From Flavobacteriaceae bacterium CG_4_10_14_3_um_filter_33_47 (lineage in GTDB: Bacteria; Bacteroidota; Bacteroidia; Flavobacteriales; Flavobacteriaceae): a DNA stretch of 56,851 bases. The position numbers were made by a program, and so were the translations under genes. The notes under the pieces were generated by a model. It ran no database searches, was not told the DNA's origin, and saw only the letters and a program-made list of their open reading frames with translations. The number at the start of each line of letters is the position of its first letter. Position 1 is the first letter of the stretch. Location: assembly GCA_002784145.1 (NCBI GenBank), contig PFKE01000081.1:1-56851 (forward strand), written 5' to 3'. Positions 2,009 through 38,699 of the stretch are shown here, in pieces.

Positions 2009-2989
2009 TTAATCTAAATAGCCCATGGAACGCATCCAGTCGTCATTAAACATTTTAGCCACATAACGGCTTCCATGATCGTGAAATAACACCACAACTA
2101 CATCATCTTTAGTAAAATGCTCTTTTAATTGAAGAACCCCTTTAATGGCTGCACCAGCAGAATTTCCTAAAAACATAGCTTCTTCTTTAGCAAGTCGCTG
2201 TGTATAAATAGCAGCCTCTTTATCGGTTACTTTTGTAAATCCATCAATCACAGAAAAATCAACATTTTTTGGTAAAATGTCTTCTCCAATGCCTTCCGTA
2301 ACGTAAGGATAAATTTCTTTCTCATCAAAAATACCCGTTTCATGATATTTTTTAAAAACCGATCCATAGGTGTCTATACCCCAAACTTTAATGTTGGGGT
2401 TTTGTTCTTTTAAATATTTGCCAACACCAGAAATGGTTCCACCTGTACCAACGCCAACCACAAAATGGGTGATTTTCCCATCGGTTTGTTTCCAGATTTC
2501 AGGACCAGTAGATTCATAATGAGCTAGTGAATTACTAGGGTTATCGTATTGATTGACATACCACGAATTAGGCGTTTCTTCAGCCAATCGTTTTGAAACT
2601 GAGTAATACGAACGCGGATCCGTTGGTTCTACGTTATTAGGGCAAACTACCACTTGTGCGCCCATAGCACGAAGTACATCTATTTTTTCTTTGGATTGTT
2701 TATCACCAATCACAAAAACACAATGATAGCCTTTTACAATAGCTGCCAATGCTAAACCCATTCCAGTATTGCCAGACGTGCCTTCAATGATGGTTCCGCC
2801 TGGTTTTAAGCGGCCATCAACTTCAGCATCTTCAATCATTTTAAGAGCCATTCTGTCTTTGGTAGAATGCCCAGGATTGAAGGTTTCATATTTTGCTAAA
2901 ACCAAACAAGGTAATTCCTTAGTAAGAACGTTTAATTTTACAAGCGGTGTATTCCCAATGGTTTCTAATATGTTTTTTTTGTAATCCAT
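2009..2989 (-). CDS. PLP-dependent cysteine synthase family protein
   Basis: 'IGNTPLVKLN', 'GHSTKDRMALKMIEDAE', 'GTSGNTGMGLALAA', 'GVGTGGTISGVGKYLKE'. Confidence 0.9.
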   Translation of the reverse strand: MDYKKNILETIGNTPLVKLNVLTKELPCLVLAKYETFNPGHSTKDRMALKMIEDAEVDGRLKPGGTIIEGTSGNTGMGLALAAIVKGYHCVFVIGDKQSKEKIDVLRAMGAQVVVCPNNVEPTDPRSYYSVSKRLAEETPNSWYVNQYDNPSNSLAHYESTGPEIWKQTDGKITHFVVGVGTGGTISGVGKYLKEQNPNIKVWGIDTYGSVFKKYHETGIFDEKEIYPYVTEGIGEDILPKNVDFSVIDGFTKVTDKEAAIYTQRLAKEEAMFLGNSAGAAIKGVLQLKEHFTKDDVVVVLFHDHGSRYVAKMFNDDWMRSMGYLD

Positions 2990-3056: not shown

Positions 3057-3139
3057 GCGTTAGTGATGGCGCCATTGTTGGAGCTCTTTGAAAAAAGCGA
3101 CTGGCGACAGCACGACCATGCTAAAAAGCATGGGAACGC
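3057..3139 (+). ncRNA. Possible divergent relative of the 34926-35029 structured element
   Basis: GCGTT/AACGC closing stem, CCATGCT/AGCATGG hairpin, shared words GCGTTA..GAT and GCGACAGCACGACC vs GCGGAAAGCCTGAC. Confidence 0.5.
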
Positions 3140-3145
3140 CCAAAA

Positions 3146-4381
3146 TTATTCAAAACGAATGGATTTTACCGGCGATATTTTAGTGATAACGTATGAAGGC
3201 ACCAAAAGCATGACCAAGCAGAGTATAAGCGTTCCTACATTTAAAGCCAAGATGTAAACAACATTAATATAAATAGGTGCTTCACTTACATAATAAACCG
3301 TTGGATCCAATGGAAATAATTTAAAGTATTTTTGAGCAAAAAGAAGGCTTAAGCCTATGAGGTTTCCCCAGAATAACCCTAATAAAATAAGATAGGACGC
3401 ATTGTATAAAAACAGTTTTCGAATGCTCCAGTTATTACTTCCCAAAGCTTTTAAAATGCCTATCATTTGAGTACGTTCCAGAATTAAAACCAATAATGCC
3501 GTTATCATATTAATGCCTGCAACCAAAATCATGATACCAATAATGCCATAGATATTTTTATCAAATATTTTTATCCATTCAAAAATAGAAACGTATTTTT
3601 CACTAATGGTTTGCGTGTTAAACGTTGAAGGTGTGTTTTGATAAATTTCGATGCCTTTTTGCTGAAGTTGGTCAAAATCATCCACAAACACTTCAAAACT
3701 ACCTACTTGATCGTCATCCCATTTATTAATGCGCTGTAAATGCCTAATATCTCCAATAACATAGGTGGCATCAAAATCTTGAAACCCTGAATTATAAATA
3801 CCTACAATGCTGTAAGTGATGATGTTTGGCAACTTATTTGGATCGTCTTTAGCAAAAATCATTTGAAACGTATCGCCCACATTAAATTTTAAACGGTTGG
3901 CAATGTACTGAGACATTAATACGTCTTCATTGCGCTTTTGAGTATAATCTGGCAAGCGTCCTTGTACTAAAAAATCTTTAAAATAATCCCAATGATAATC
4001 AGCGCCGACACCTTTTAAAACCAAGCCTTCAAAATCGGTTTCTGTTCTAATCACACCAAATTTTGTAGCAACTGCTTGTATATATTTAATGCCTTCAACC
4101 GTTTTAAATTCTGGGTAAAAGTCCTGTTTAGTTGAAATGGGAACGAGACTTTCCTGAGAATTATTACTATCAAAATTATTTATAATAACATGCCCGTTAA
4201 AAGCTACCACTTTATCTCTAATTTTTTGTTGCAATCCTATTCCAGTTGCAATAGCAATCATCATAACAATAATGCCTATAGCAATAGCCGAAATACCAAT
4301 TTTTATTATTGGTGCCGATATGCTACTTTTATACGCTTTACTGCCAATAATACGTTTAGCTATAAAATACTCGTAATTCAA
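3146..4381 (-). CDS. ABC transporter permease, FtsX/LolC-E-like
   Basis: MacB/FtsX-like organisation, N-terminal TM and C-terminal 'MIGILKALGSNNWSIRKLFLYNA'. Confidence 0.8.
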   Translation of the reverse strand: MNYEYFIAKRIIGSKAYKSSISAPIIKIGISAIAIGIIVMMIAIATGIGLQQKIRDKVVAFNGHVIINNFDSNNSQESLVPISTKQDFYPEFKTVEGIKYIQAVATKFGVIRTETDFEGLVLKGVGADYHWDYFKDFLVQGRLPDYTQKRNEDVLMSQYIANRLKFNVGDTFQMIFAKDDPNKLPNIITYSIVGIYNSGFQDFDATYVIGDIRHLQRINKWDDDQVGSFEVFVDDFDQLQQKGIEIYQNTPSTFNTQTISEKYVSIFEWIKIFDKNIYGIIGIMILVAGINMITALLVLILERTQMIGILKALGSNNWSIRKLFLYNASYLILLGLFWGNLIGLSLLFAQKYFKLFPLDPTVYYVSEAPIYINVVYILALNVGTLILCLVMLLVPSYVITKISPVKSIRFE

Positions 4382-33601: not shown

Positions 33602-34816
33602 TTATTCCAATCCATCAACATAATCTTGCAAATAAGCAAACCGTGAGGTCAATTGTCCATTTTCGGTAATCTTTGCACGCGCCAAAACACCATCTTTATC
33701 ATTATTAAAAAATGCTGGCATAACGTGTTGCAAAAACTGATTACCAAAACCTTCACTGGCATCCTTTGGAAGTTCACATGGCAAATTATCAACAGACATT
33801 ACTGCAATGGCGCTTTCGTTTTTATAACCTGTCTCTGCTTCGGTTTGTGGGTCGTAACCATAAAATGGCTCTTCTATGGTTGACGTTCTTAAGGTAGTAG
33901 GAATAGGCCCATTATTAACATCACAACTTATATCTGCAATTACTTTAATTTTAAAATCAGAGGATTTTACAGCTTCCTTCGTAAAAAATTCAGGAGCTCC
34001 ATTGCCATAAAAATGCCCAGCAATATAATAGTTGGTCACCTTAGCAAATCGCATAAAATTTGATTCATAATCCTGCGGATTATTAAAAAAATCAAACATA
34101 TCAATAACCTTTCCATCTTTTCGTTTATTATAATCTAATACATCAATTTTACAATAAACGGGTTCATTAAAAGTTTGATTTAAATAGTCATCTACTGAAA
34201 CCTTTTTTATAGGCACAGCATCCAGAATTTCTTGAGATCCATTGGCAACTTTACCACTTCCTGTAAGAAGTATTTTGATGTTAGGAAAGGTAAGGTTTTG
34301 TAATTGATTGATTAAAGCCTTTTGGTCATGTATGGCTTCGGCTTTTGGTAAATTCCATACATTATATTTTAATCCCCATGCTCTAAAGCCATTATAAGTT
34401 CCCACTATGCCAGCATAACGTCCAAAACCAATTAAACGAAATCCTTTTTCATTCACAATGGTTTCGTGGTCGTACAATACAATATTCTTTTCTAGAACAG
34501 CCTTTAGAAGCTTTCTGTTATAAGGTTGCTTTTTGATGGTATGAGAAAAGAAAAAATATGCTTTATTAGGAATTAAATTTTCAATGGGTACTTCTTTTAC
34601 GCCAATAAACACATCACAATCACTTACGTTATGGGTTACTTTAAATCCTGCTTTGGTGTAATCTTTATTAGAGAACACTCTAATATCACTTGATTCAATT
34701 TTAAATATTGCATCTGGAAATTGTTTTTGTGCTTGAATTAATTTTGATGGCGTTAACACAACACGTCTGTCTGCTGGCGTTTTTCGTTCTTTTATGATTG
34801 TAAATTTGATGCCCAT
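33602..34816 (-). CDS. NAD(P)-dependent oxidoreductase of alanine dehydrogenase/saccharopine dehydrogenase type
   Basis: Likely start MGIKFTIIKERKTPADRRVVLTPSKL; 'LLTGSGKVANGSQEIL'. Confidence 0.75.
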   Translation of the reverse strand: MGIKFTIIKERKTPADRRVVLTPSKLIQAQKQFPDAIFKIESSDIRVFSNKDYTKAGFKVTHNVSDCDVFIGVKEVPIENLIPNKAYFFFSHTIKKQPYNRKLLKAVLEKNIVLYDHETIVNEKGFRLIGFGRYAGIVGTYNGFRAWGLKYNVWNLPKAEAIHDQKALINQLQNLTFPNIKILLTGSGKVANGSQEILDAVPIKKVSVDDYLNQTFNEPVYCKIDVLDYNKRKDGKVIDMFDFFNNPQDYESNFMRFAKVTNYYIAGHFYGNGAPEFFTKEAVKSSDFKIKVIADISCDVNNGPIPTTLRTSTIEEPFYGYDPQTEAETGYKNESAIAVMSVDNLPCELPKDASEGFGNQFLQHVMPAFFNNDKDGVLARAKITENGQLTSRFAYLQDYVDGLE

Positions 34817-34887
34817 ATGGTAATTGATTATTTTAATAACATGCCAAGTTATTAATTGGTATAAATTTTGTGCTAATGTAAAAGGTT

Positions 34888-34920
34888 TTGAATGGTTATA
34901 CAAACTTTTTGATACCTTTG
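34888..34920 (+). promoter_or_regulatory. Candidate promoter for the leader element/tmRNA (TTG-N22-TACCTTTG)
   Basis: TACCTTTG at 34913-34920 fits TAnnTTTG; TTG at 34888-34890. Confidence 0.55.
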
Positions 34921-34925
34921 CAACC

Positions 34926-35029
34926 CGCGTTAAGGATTAAAGCGGCATCCTTTTTTGCAAATAGAAGCAAAAAAGATATAGCGGAAAGCCTGACGCACTT
35001 TTGCCATTAAAACAAAAGTGGGTAACGCG
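34926..35029 (+). ncRNA. Structured RNA element of unassigned family upstream of tmRNA
   Basis: Closing stem CGCGTTA/TAACGCG; internal GGAT/ATCC, TTTTTTGC/GCAAAAAA and CACTTTTG/CAAAAGTG stems, all perfect. Confidence 0.7.
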
Positions 35030-35061
35030 ATGATAAAAATTATTTTTCAATTAATGAGTAT

Positions 35062-35454
35062 GGGGTCGACTGGTTTTGACAGCGAGATTAATTGAATGGT
35101 AAGCACGCCGTGTAATGACTTTGAAACACGTAAAAGGCTAGGTCAAAATTTAAACGGCGAGAATAACTACGCTTTAGCTGCTTAATCTGAATCGAGTAAG
35201 ATAAGCCTCGGCACACAAGGTGTGCAAGCTAAATGTCTCTAGAAAGCCTTGGTTAGCGGCGGTCTGTATAGAGGCATCGTAAAAGTTAACATAGATAGGG
35301 TAGTGCTTTGATGCCCTTTTGAAACTAAAAAAGATAAGTTGTGAGTAGAGTGTTTTTAATCAGCTTACAATCGAAAACCATGAAAAAACTAAACGTGTAG
35401 AAAGCCTTTTTGTTACTTGTTTGGACGAGAGTTCGATTCTCTCCGGCTCCACTA
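35062..35454 (+). ncRNA. ssrA: Transfer-messenger RNA (tmRNA), tag peptide GENNYALAA
   Basis: 5' GGGGTCG pairs with 3' CGGCTCC; T-arm gagagttcgattctctc; tag reading ggcgagaataactacgctttagctgcttaa at 35156-35185. Confidence 0.96.
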
Positions 35455-36117: not shown

Positions 36118-36202
36118 GCGCACGTGGCGGAATTGGTAGACGCGCCAGCTTGAGGGGCTGGTATTCGCTTAGAATGTGGAAGTTCGAGTCTTCTCGTGCG
36201 CA
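36118..36202 (+). tRNA. tRNA-Leu (anticodon GAG)
   Basis: Acceptor GCGCACG/CGTGCGC, D-loop ggcggaattggtagacgc, anticodon stem ccagc-ttgaggg-gctgg, T-arm agttcgagtct, long variable arm. Confidence 0.95.
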
Positions 36203-36257
36203 CTTTTCAAATATAAAATCCATGGATGTTTTTTTAAACTGATTATTTTAATTAATA

Positions 36258-36290
36258 TTGTTCAACTTTTTTTTATTAATAATGAACAAT
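36258..36290. promoter_or_regulatory. Inverted repeat and motif overlapping the start of the MerR gene
   Basis: ATTGTTCA (36257-36264) / TGAACAAT (36283-36290); TTGTTCAACTTTTTT matches TTGTTTAGCTTTTTT at 37207-37221. Confidence 0.5.
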
Positions 36291-37190
36291 TTAAGAACTG
36301 AGTTTAGTATCAAAGATTTAGAAAATCTTAGTGGAATAAAAGCTCACACCATTAGAATTTGGGAAAAACGTTATAATTTATTTCAACCTAAAAGAACCGG
36401 GACCAACATTAGATACTATTCAACAGAAAGCCTTCAAAAAATTTTAAATGTTGCTTTTTTAAACAATAACGGTTATAAAATTTCTAAAATTTCAAGGTTA
36501 AACAATCAAGATATTTCTTCTTTGGTTAAAGAGGTTGCAGCAAAAGATCTTTACAAAGACGATCATAGCATAAGTGCCTTAAAACTTGCCATGTTAACAT
36601 TTGATCAGCATTTGTTTTCTAAGACATACAATGAGTTATTGAGCAAAAAAACATTTAAGGAAATCTTTTATGATGCCTTTTTACCCCTTTTAAATGAAAT
36701 TGGCCTCTTGTGGCAAACAGGTACTATAACTCCCGCACATGAGCACTTTATTTCAACTAGAATAAAACAGAAAATACTATTAAACATCGAGAAAACTCAA
36801 GATAAAGAGAAAAATAATTGCAAAAAAACATTTGTGTTTTTTCTTCCAGAAAATGAGATCCATGACATTGGCCTTCTTTTTATTAATTATAAATTGATAA
36901 ACAGAGGTTACGAAACCCTATTTTTAGGACAAAGCATTCCAACGGACAACTTAAAAGATTTATTGAAGTTTTATAACGAAATTATCTTTATTTCGTATTT
37001 TACTGTAAAGCCCGATAAAGAGCATCTCACTAATTACCTTGAAGATTTTTATCAAAAACTTTTAAAAGACAAACCAAATGAACTTTGGATTTTGGGATAT
37101 ATGTTGGAACATTTAGACTATGATAATATTCCAGAGAAAATAATTCCTTTTTTAAGTATTGAAAAATTAGTTAATAAATTACAAAATTAA
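36282..37190 (+). CDS. MerR-family regulator with cobalamin-binding domain (CarH/LitR-like)
   Basis: MerR helix 'FSIKDLENLSGIKAHTIRIWEKRYNLFQPKRTGTNIRYYS'; Wx9EH motif 'WQTGTITPAHEH'; ExHxxG motif 'EIHDIG'; ATG 36282. Confidence 0.85.
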   Translation: MNNLRTEFSIKDLENLSGIKAHTIRIWEKRYNLFQPKRTGTNIRYYSTESLQKILNVAFLNNNGYKISKISRLNNQDISSLVKEVAAKDLYKDDHSISALKLAMLTFDQHLFSKTYNELLSKKTFKEIFYDAFLPLLNEIGLLWQTGTITPAHEHFISTRIKQKILLNIEKTQDKEKNNCKKTFVFFLPENEIHDIGLLFINYKLINRGYETLFLGQSIPTDNLKDLLKFYNEIIFISYFTVKPDKEHLTNYLEDFYQKLLKDKPNELWILGYMLEHLDYDNIPEKIIPFLSIEKLVNKLQN

Positions 37191-37238
37191 GTTAAATATC
37201 ATTATTTTGTTTAGCTTTTTTATACTTTTGTTAAACAT

Positions 37239-38699
37239 ATGAAACTATCAATTATTGGTTCTGGATTTTCGTCATTAGCTGCAGCTTGTTATCTAGCAAA
37301 GAGTGGCTATGAGGTTACTATTTTTGAAAAAAACAAAACCATTGGTGGTCGTGCAAGACAATTGATAAAAGAGGGTTTTACTTTTGACATTGGCCCAACC
37401 TGGTACTGGATGCCAGATGTTTTTGAGCGTTTTTTTTCAGATTTTAATAAGCAACCATCAGATTATTACGCGTTGGAAAAATTAAATCCAGCCTACAGCG
37501 TTTATTTTGGCGTTAATGATTACATCACCATTGAAGATACCCTAGAGAAAATTATTTTGGCTTTTGAGAAAGAAGAAAAAGGTTCTTCTGTAAAGCTCAA
37601 AAAATTTATAAACAATGCCAAAAACAATTATGATATTGCTATTAAAGATCTGGTTTACAATCCCGGCGTTTCTCCTTTAGAATTAATAACATTTCAAACA
37701 GCAAAAAAAATAAATCAATTCTTCAGCAACATTAAAAGAGATGTTAGAAAAGAATTTAAAAATGATAGACTGGTAAAAATTCTAGAATTTCCTGTGCTGT
37801 TTTTAGGCGCCAAACCAAGTGATACACCTTCTTTTTATAGTTTTATGAATTATGCCGATTTTGGTCTTGGAACCTTTCATCCAAAAAAAGGCATGTATCA
37901 AGTTATCTTGGCCATAGAATCTTTAGCTAAAGAACTTGGTGTTAAAATAAAAACCGAGAGTCCAATTGAAAAAATAATGGTTGAAAACGGTCAAGCTAAA
38001 GGAATTGTTTCAAATGGAAAAACCTACTTGAGCGATGTGGTTTTAAGCGGAGCCGATTATCATCATACTGAAACCTTATTAGACAAACCATACAGACAAT
38101 ACTCAGAAAATTATTGGAGTAAAAAAACATTCGCTCCTTCTTCTCTCCTGTTTTATGTAGGTTTTGATAAAAAATTGATAAATGTAAATCACCACACACT
38201 TTTTTTTGATGTGGATTTTGATAAACACGCTGAAGCCATTTATGATACTGCAAAATGGCCTGAAAACCCTTTATTTTATGCTAGTTTTCCTAGCAAAACA
38301 GATATGAATTCTGCGCCAGAAGGTAAAGAAGCTGGTATTTTTTTAATTCCACTCGCTCCTGGATTAGAAGACACACCTGTATTAAGAGATATTTATTTTG
38401 AAAAAATAATGACACGTTTTGAAAGATTAACATCTCAAAACATAAAAAAGCATATCATATTTAGGGAGTCATTTTGTGTTAATGATTTTGTAAATGATTA
38501 CAATTCGTATAAAGGCAATGCTTATGGAATGGCAAACACGTTAACACAAACAGCATTCTTAAGACCTAAATTAAAAAGCAAAAAAATTAAAAATTTATTT
38601 TTTACGGGTCAATTAACGGTTCCAGGACCAGGCGTTCCTCCGGCTTTGATTTCAGGCAAACTAGTGTCAGAATTAATAACCAAACATCACCTTATATAA
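37239..38699 (+). CDS. crtI: Phytoene desaturase (CrtI-type)
   Basis: 'SIIGSGFSSLAAACYLAKSGYEVTIFEKN.TIGGRARQL', C-terminal 'LFFTGQLTVPGPGVPPALISGKLVSE'. Confidence 0.93.
   Translation: MKLSIIGSGFSSLAAACYLAKSGYEVTIFEKNKTIGGRARQLIKEGFTFDIGPTWYWMPDVFERFFSDFNKQPSDYYALEKLNPAYSVYFGVNDYITIEDTLEKIILAFEKEEKGSSVKLKKFINNAKNNYDIAIKDLVYNPGVSPLELITFQTAKKINQFFSNIKRDVRKEFKNDRLVKILEFPVLFLGAKPSDTPSFYSFMNYADFGLGTFHPKKGMYQVILAIESLAKELGVKIKTESPIEKIMVENGQAKGIVSNGKTYLSDVVLSGADYHHTETLLDKPYRQYSENYWSKKTFAPSSLLFYVGFDKKLINVNHHTLFFDVDFDKHAEAIYDTAKWPENPLFYASFPSKTDMNSAPEGKEAGIFLIPLAPGLEDTPVLRDIYFEKIMTRFERLTSQNIKKHIIFRESFCVNDFVNDYNSYKGNAYGMANTLTQTAFLRPKLKSKKIKNLFFTGQLTVPGPGVPPALISGKLVSELITKHHLI

Follow-up and report, generated by a model that had tools for sequence, protein, structure and literature searches.

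The ssrA locus and the element preceding it

The window, which is the whole analysed stretch of 56,851 nt, contains the tmRNA gene (ssrA) of a member of the Flavobacteriaceae. A compact folded segment lies between the probable promoter of this gene and the mature tmRNA, and a second element of the same family is found elsewhere in the window. The annotated features are as follows.

3057 to 3139, forward strand: second family element, type B (model R2, 69.8 bits, E 1e-14)
34887 to 34890, forward strand: TTTG, candidate -33 element for ssrA, 22 nt 5′ of the -7 box (sequence reading)
34913 to 34920, forward strand: TACCTTTG, -7 promoter box of ssrA (TAnnTTTG match)
34926 to 34932 and 35023 to 35029, forward strand: CGCGTTA and TAACGCG, closing stem (exact)
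34927 to 35028, forward strand: complete type A Flavo-1 element, forming a three-way junction of P1, P2 and P3 (Rfam, full-length model, covariation)
34927 to 34931, forward strand: GCGTT, 5′ strand of P1, with its partner AACGC at 35024 to 35028 (covariation and RNA fold)
34933 to 34991, forward strand: P2, the Flavo-1 hairpin, type A (Rfam match, covariation, pattern set of 115 copies)
34933 to 34935 and 34989 to 34991, forward strand: AGG and CCT, basal pairs of P2
34934 to 34937 and 34947 to 34950, forward strand: GGAT and ATCC (letters exact)
34951 to 34958 and 34967 to 34974, forward strand: TTTTTTGC and GCAAAAAA, letters of the inner stem (exact)
34993 to 35023, forward strand: P3, variable side hairpin, the side stem plus an AC/GT base (fold and letter check)
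34996 to 35003 and 35013 to 35020, forward strand: CACTTTTG and CAAAAGTG, letters of the side stem (exact)
35030 to 35061, forward strand: spacer between element and mature tmRNA, varying among relatives
35062 to 35454, forward strand: tmRNA (ssrA) with the tag GENNYALAA (Rfam RF00023, 139.3 bits; ARAGORN)

Promoters of Bacteroidota have a -33/-7 consensus. The last TAnnTTTG box 5′ of the tmRNA is TACCTTTG, with one earlier box at 34801 and, as a sequence-only reading of this DNA had stated, none between TACCTTTG and the tmRNA. The four stems which that reading had placed within 34926-35029 are present letter for letter. A tRNA-Leu(GAG) was recognised by eye downstream of ssrA (36118-38699), along with one gene for a MerR-like regulator and one resembling phytoene desaturase genes.

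A match to Flavo-1 (RF01705) was found by cmscan with Rfam 15 at 34918-34999; it covers the full model (1-76) and scores 49.6 bits, above the gathering score of 42 bits, so that the earlier guess of an orphan Rfam model, with Flavo-1 as one example, proved to be right. The full-length model R1 matches at 34927-35028 with 63.9 bits. The folded segment 5′ of the tmRNA gene is a complete copy of Flavo-1, which is known as a repeat of Flavobacteria but is still without an explanation. The Flavo-1 unit extends beyond the Rfam model, which covers P2 alone, and P1 and P3 are added here. A P1 of the kind GCGTT..AACGC, a concerted P2 base and a variable P3 are common to the copies in this and in related genomes. 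P1 also occurs in relatives as GGTT/AACC, GTGTT/AACAC and GCGCA/TGCGC, and the basal triplet of P2 varies in concert (AGG/CCT, GCG/CGC, GGG/CCC, ACG/CGT, GTG/CAC). The covarying helix of the Flavo-1 P2 and its conserved AGCGG-type mismatched core are both present in the window family. There is also a simpler form of Flavo-1, close to the Rfam consensus, without P1 and P3 of the window kind. The hairpin that had been proposed for GGAT and ATCC does not form a conserved helix: GG is paired with the CC at 34989-34990 in the base of P2, and ATC, from ATCC, with the GAT following GCAAAAAA. The suggested GGC/GCC pseudoknot likewise received no support.

Fold energy and covariation

Folded as a single strand, 34926-35029 has -30.5 kcal/mol as RNA (z -3.6), a value reached by one of 200 shuffled sequences, and the DNA fold has -22.0 kcal/mol (z -4.4), reached by none of 200. 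Because the minimum-energy folds of RNA and DNA are both the three-way junction supported by covariation, the structure is above chance, and the earlier claim of a real structure is borne out. In an alignment of 47 type A copies, which was fitted to the model and is thus biased towards structure, 21 of the 24 pairs are altered on both sides, with 195 cells of two-sided change compared to 46 in shuffles; 94.6% of the cells are paired, the covariation score is 0.499 versus 0.148 after shuffling, and shifting the pair partners abolishes the signal. The same pairs covary in 115 copies that were collected by sequence pattern rather than by the model, and the purine mismatches at fixed sites (A.G, G.A, A.G, G.A) are almost invariant across these copies.

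Dispersal of the family

The sequence-only reading had left open whether the unit belongs to ssrA alone; its copies are in fact dispersed. There are 11 matches of Flavo-1 and 11 of type B in the window's genome, and up to 45 Flavo-1 matches per genome were found elsewhere, with 12-45 in each of eight single-contig genomes. Flavo-1 is present in 124 of 201 Flavobacteriaceae genomes and in all seven of the genus; as at most 22 candidates per genome were scored in the scan of the 201 genomes, its per-genome counts are lower bounds. The dispersed copies have mixed neighbour genes and occur in either orientation, a consistent 5′ placement in sense being found only at ssrA. There is no replication-strand bias (81:69, p 0.37, with the origin assumed at the contig start).

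No match was obtained for the type A copy of the window in phage and plasmid collections, nor for the type B consensus in the plasmid collection (short queries, E limit 1e-3). Visual inspection of the flanks that were read revealed no target-site duplication, and a clean empty site was not obtained. A Y1 transposase of the RAYT kind (PF01797) is absent from 13 of 20 genomes, including the high-copy genomes G072, G172, G071, G167 and G203; mobilisation by RAYT was rejected since PF01797 is missing from most high-copy genomes. No mobilising enzyme was found, the Y1 transposase (PF01797) being the candidate examined.

Some individual sites deserve mention. The simple form of Flavo-1 occupies the same antisense place in many genera, just 5′ of a gene starting MFNVDDIRKDFP, which we take to be SufS-like (loci L013, L018-L020, L024, L027, L034, L040, L042-L044, L049). 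Another copy, conserved and with P1 altered to GGTTA/TAACC, lies in what looks like the 5′ UTR of a gene that begins with MIKDTTEWFSSWFD and is presumably methyltransferase-like (L054, L055, L063, L065). Element-like sequences were seen in Mucilaginibacter (L323) and Crocinitomix (L271), which we assume to be outside the Flavobacteriaceae.

Type B and switching of the outer P2 module

In many species the element at ssrA has the same P1, P2 base and P3, combined with another outer P2 (GAGGCATTTGTTGGAGCTC..GAGCGACTGCCGAAAG). The pairs of this form, type B, covary as well. No Rfam family matches the type B copy at 3057-3139 at E<=1, and ten further type B loci gave no Rfam match at the gathering threshold. 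Type B, too, is dispersed, with 2-39 matches per genome in 14 genomes. The copy at 3057-3139 is situated between a cysteine synthase-like gene (2009-2989, reverse strand) and an FtsX-like permease gene (ending at 3146, reverse strand) and is antisense to both. The reverse strand of type B is open in two of three frames, so that a gene lacking a stop just before the element would be extended by a tail that the repeat encodes.

At ssrA, G000 and G203, which are congeners, have P1, the P2 base and P3 in common, while the outer P2 is of type A in G000 and of type B in G203. An equivalent switch occurs at the orthologous locus of 3057-3139, where G000 and G205 have type B and G202 has type A; the P2 base of the G202 copy is identical to that of the type B copies and its P3 is near-identical. 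We conclude from these comparisons that the scaffold is inherited at orthologous sites while the outer P2 module switches between A and B. In the G202 copy (L241), the type A P2 loop contains a nested second repeat, CGTCATTACGAGGAACAAAGTGACGAAGTAATCTC.. Further variants of the outer P2 share this scaffold; one kind resembles CCCACAGCGAGGACTTG and another is very short (L010, L011, L079, L097, L138, L139, L268, L300, L325).

The element at ssrA loci

We compared 64 ssrA loci from Flavobacteriaceae, a non-random set with 36 loci from Flavo-1-positive genomes and the genus and 28 from Flavo-1-negative or low-copy genomes. At 37 of the 64, an element of the family is located between promoter and tmRNA, in sense orientation in all 37 cases. 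The element starts 5-6 nt 3′ of the -7 box in 20 of the 27 leaders measured. A TAnnTTTG box 3-8 nt 5′ of the element is found for 23 of 32 ssrA copies but only for 2 of 157 other copies, and one of these two (L152) is an ssrA copy missed by the filter. From the -7 box to the tmRNA there are 77-270 nt when the element is present and mostly 13-43 nt when it is not. With regard to the idea that the element might take the place of a boxA-like motif, such a motif (at least 9 of 11 matches) precedes the tmRNA at 12 of 34 loci with and 11 of 26 without the element. A scan of genome contigs for a pattern of -7 box and element start returned mostly chance matches; eight matches are ssrA, e.g. in Polaribacter porphyrae, Tamlana fucoidanivorans and Aestuariibaculum. 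Thus, ssrA is a special site for a dispersed family, and near adjacency to a -7 box is almost absent elsewhere.

On a quick tmRNA tree, which is based on a single short gene and has many weak branches, element presence is clustered (10 changes versus a shuffled mean of 19.9, with none of 500 shuffles as low), the element is missing from 26 of the 60 ssrA genes, and the type labels show 11 changes for A and 12 for B, close to the values for shuffled labels (means 12.9 and 12.7, with 43 and 183 of 500 shuffles as low).

As the element is found between promoter and tmRNA and starts approximately at the predicted transcription start, the natural reading of its position is that transcription would include it as a 5′ leader of pre-tmRNA. 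The mature 5′ end of tmRNA is formed by RNase P. Of the two possibilities raised earlier, a leader or a separate RNA processed from the same transcript, position speaks for the former; the idea of a separate sRNA gene is not supported either, as there is no excess of wobble pairs and dispersed copies occur in either orientation.

Scarcity of wobble pairs

GU pairs make up 1.5% of the standard pairs in the elements, a figure that excludes a conserved U-G in the assumed type B pairing, versus 21.6% in the mature tmRNA helices of the same loci, tmRNA being the one RNA family used as a control. The GU:AC ratio is 11:16 in 35 ssrA leaders versus 386:6 in the mature tmRNA of the same genes, and it is 50:42 in 154 non-ssrA copies. 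Two-sided and one-sided changes are related as 195:12 in type A and as 158:109 in tmRNA. Because a model-based search tolerates GU more readily than AC, the search should not explain the scarcity of wobble pairs. As these are as rare as A-C mismatches, selection of an RNA with ordinary wobble tolerance is unlikely. We infer that folded DNA, or a recogniser that requires Watson-Crick pairs, probably fits the pairing better, and in the way it pairs, the element looks closer to a folded DNA repeat with exchangeable parts than to an ordinary RNA gene. Strict pairing could also stem from recognition of an RNA by a protein, and the conservation of orthologous copies across genera, together with the near-invariant unpaired bases in the 115 copies, suggests a selected function, possibly that of an RNA.

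We regard it as somewhat probable that this is a dispersed element which is kept largely as folded DNA, is inherited at ssrA, and is transcribed there as the 5′ leader of pre-tmRNA. On a constant scaffold of P1, P2 base and P3, different modules could form the outer P2 (type A, type B and further forms), and these modules may be exchanged between copies by recombination or template switching. What is maintained would mainly be an extruded or single-stranded DNA hairpin with strict Watson-Crick arms and fixed purine mismatches; such maintenance at the DNA level is the reading that we favour. The ssrA copy would be old and mostly vertically inherited, and it may be passively transcribed or may have come to protect the precursor as a cap at its 5′ end; the leader would be removed when RNase P makes the mature 5′ end. 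A more far-reaching proposal, which we put forward tentatively and with considerable doubt, is that Flavo-1 and its sister forms might constitute one superfamily of folded DNA rather than RNA genes, with a constant three-way-junction scaffold and interchangeable hairpin modules; a non-RAYT enzyme would have spread and recombined them in Flavobacteriia, and one copy would have come to rest at the transcription start of ssrA.

It is rather unlikely, and slightly more so than that proposal, that the element acts at ssrA as RNA, the junction at the 5′ end of pre-tmRNA binding a protein or blocking 5′ decay and thus being under selection. The sense orientation at all 37 element-bearing loci, the -7 box 3-8 nt upstream, the RNA fold (z -3.6) and the conserved non-canonical purine pairs would all agree with this, whereas the leaders lack the wobble pairs that abound in the tmRNA of the same genes, P2 alternates between two unrelated outer structures, and many ssrA genes on the tree manage without the element. 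The near-absence of wobble and the switching between A and B argue against a plain sRNA as well as against an ssrA-specific RNA.

Placement relative to neighbouring genes

Neighbour genes were assigned mechanically as open frames at 125 deduplicated sites, only 2 of which overlap an open frame. Antisense neighbours have their stop no more than 15 nt from the 3′ end of the element in 43 of 78 cases, and for sense neighbours the stop is that close to the 5′ end of the element in 7 of 52. Placement of the element is therefore not orientation-neutral. Stop-to-element distances of 10 and 4 nt are favoured, and a frame bias in the stop distances, which we had considered, mostly reflects these two values. 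In tandem gene contexts, the ratio of sense to antisense is 10:27 for type B (p 0.008) and 15:15 for type A.

The proximity to antisense stops, the favoured distances and the orientation bias of type B might indicate a 3′-UTR element, for which the relevant strand would be the reverse complement of that in Rfam; it would follow antisense stops and protect or end mRNAs, with the ssrA copy as an oddity. We consider this improbable: type A has no orientation bias, the reverse strand is also without wobble excess (50:42) and has no U-run after the stem, and ssrA copies are in sense throughout. That Flavo-1 is a stand-alone trans-acting sRNA gene, in line with its Rfam type 'Gene; sRNA' and its proposal in 2010 as a likely non-cis-regulatory RNA (Weinberg et al., PMC2864571), is highly improbable given the many copies per genome, the -7 box just upstream in only 1-2 of 157 non-ssrA copies, and the situation in Flavobacterium psychrophilum, where matches overlap several 5′ transcribed regions, are sense or antisense, are often outside transcribed regions, and are reported to be inconsistently transcribed (PMC9723704).

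Comparison with known systems

Flavo-1 has been an Rfam family without function since 2010, and we found no paper that gives its function or links it to ssrA. Given the complete unit, a sister that Rfam does not cover, a fixed home in the ssrA leader and a wobble test against selection as RNA alone, the nature of Flavo-1 can be tested directly. Should it be a DNA element, this 'sRNA' family of Rfam would have to be relabelled, and a new activity that mobilises or exchanges repeats would still have to be found in Bacteroidota.

REP/BIME elements with RAYT are similar in having many intergenic palindromic copies per genome, often near stop codons. The element described here differs in being a larger three-way junction with outer modules swapped at fixed sites, and Y1 transposases of the RAYT kind are missing from most of the high-copy genomes. 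MITE-like repeats (ERIC, Correia, RUP) are likewise short, non-coding, dispersed and foldable, but here the terminal inverted repeats consist of P1 only and the flanks that were read show no target-site duplication. Integron attC sites share the folded DNA, the conserved mismatches and the variable outer hairpins, while our copies are scattered and do not form cassette arrays. The termini of attC have the polarity TAAC..GTTA and those of the Flavo-1 element the inverted one, GTTA..TAAC, for which reason identity with attC was rejected. A cis-regulatory leader of the riboswitch kind would differ in its consistent sense placement 5′ of one gene or pathway, which is seen here at ssrA only.

The closest relative is Flavo-1 RNA (RF01705) itself, with P2 above the gathering score and a shared AGCGG..AGCGG core. 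The Rfam family is restricted to P2 and classified as an sRNA gene; the element found here has P1 and P3 in addition, occupies the ssrA leader in many genera, and is joined by a sister form, type B, for which Rfam has no family. In summary, this is a known orphan family, which sequence comparison reveals here as a larger, modular element with a sister form lacking an Rfam entry and a conserved place in the predicted ssrA leader.
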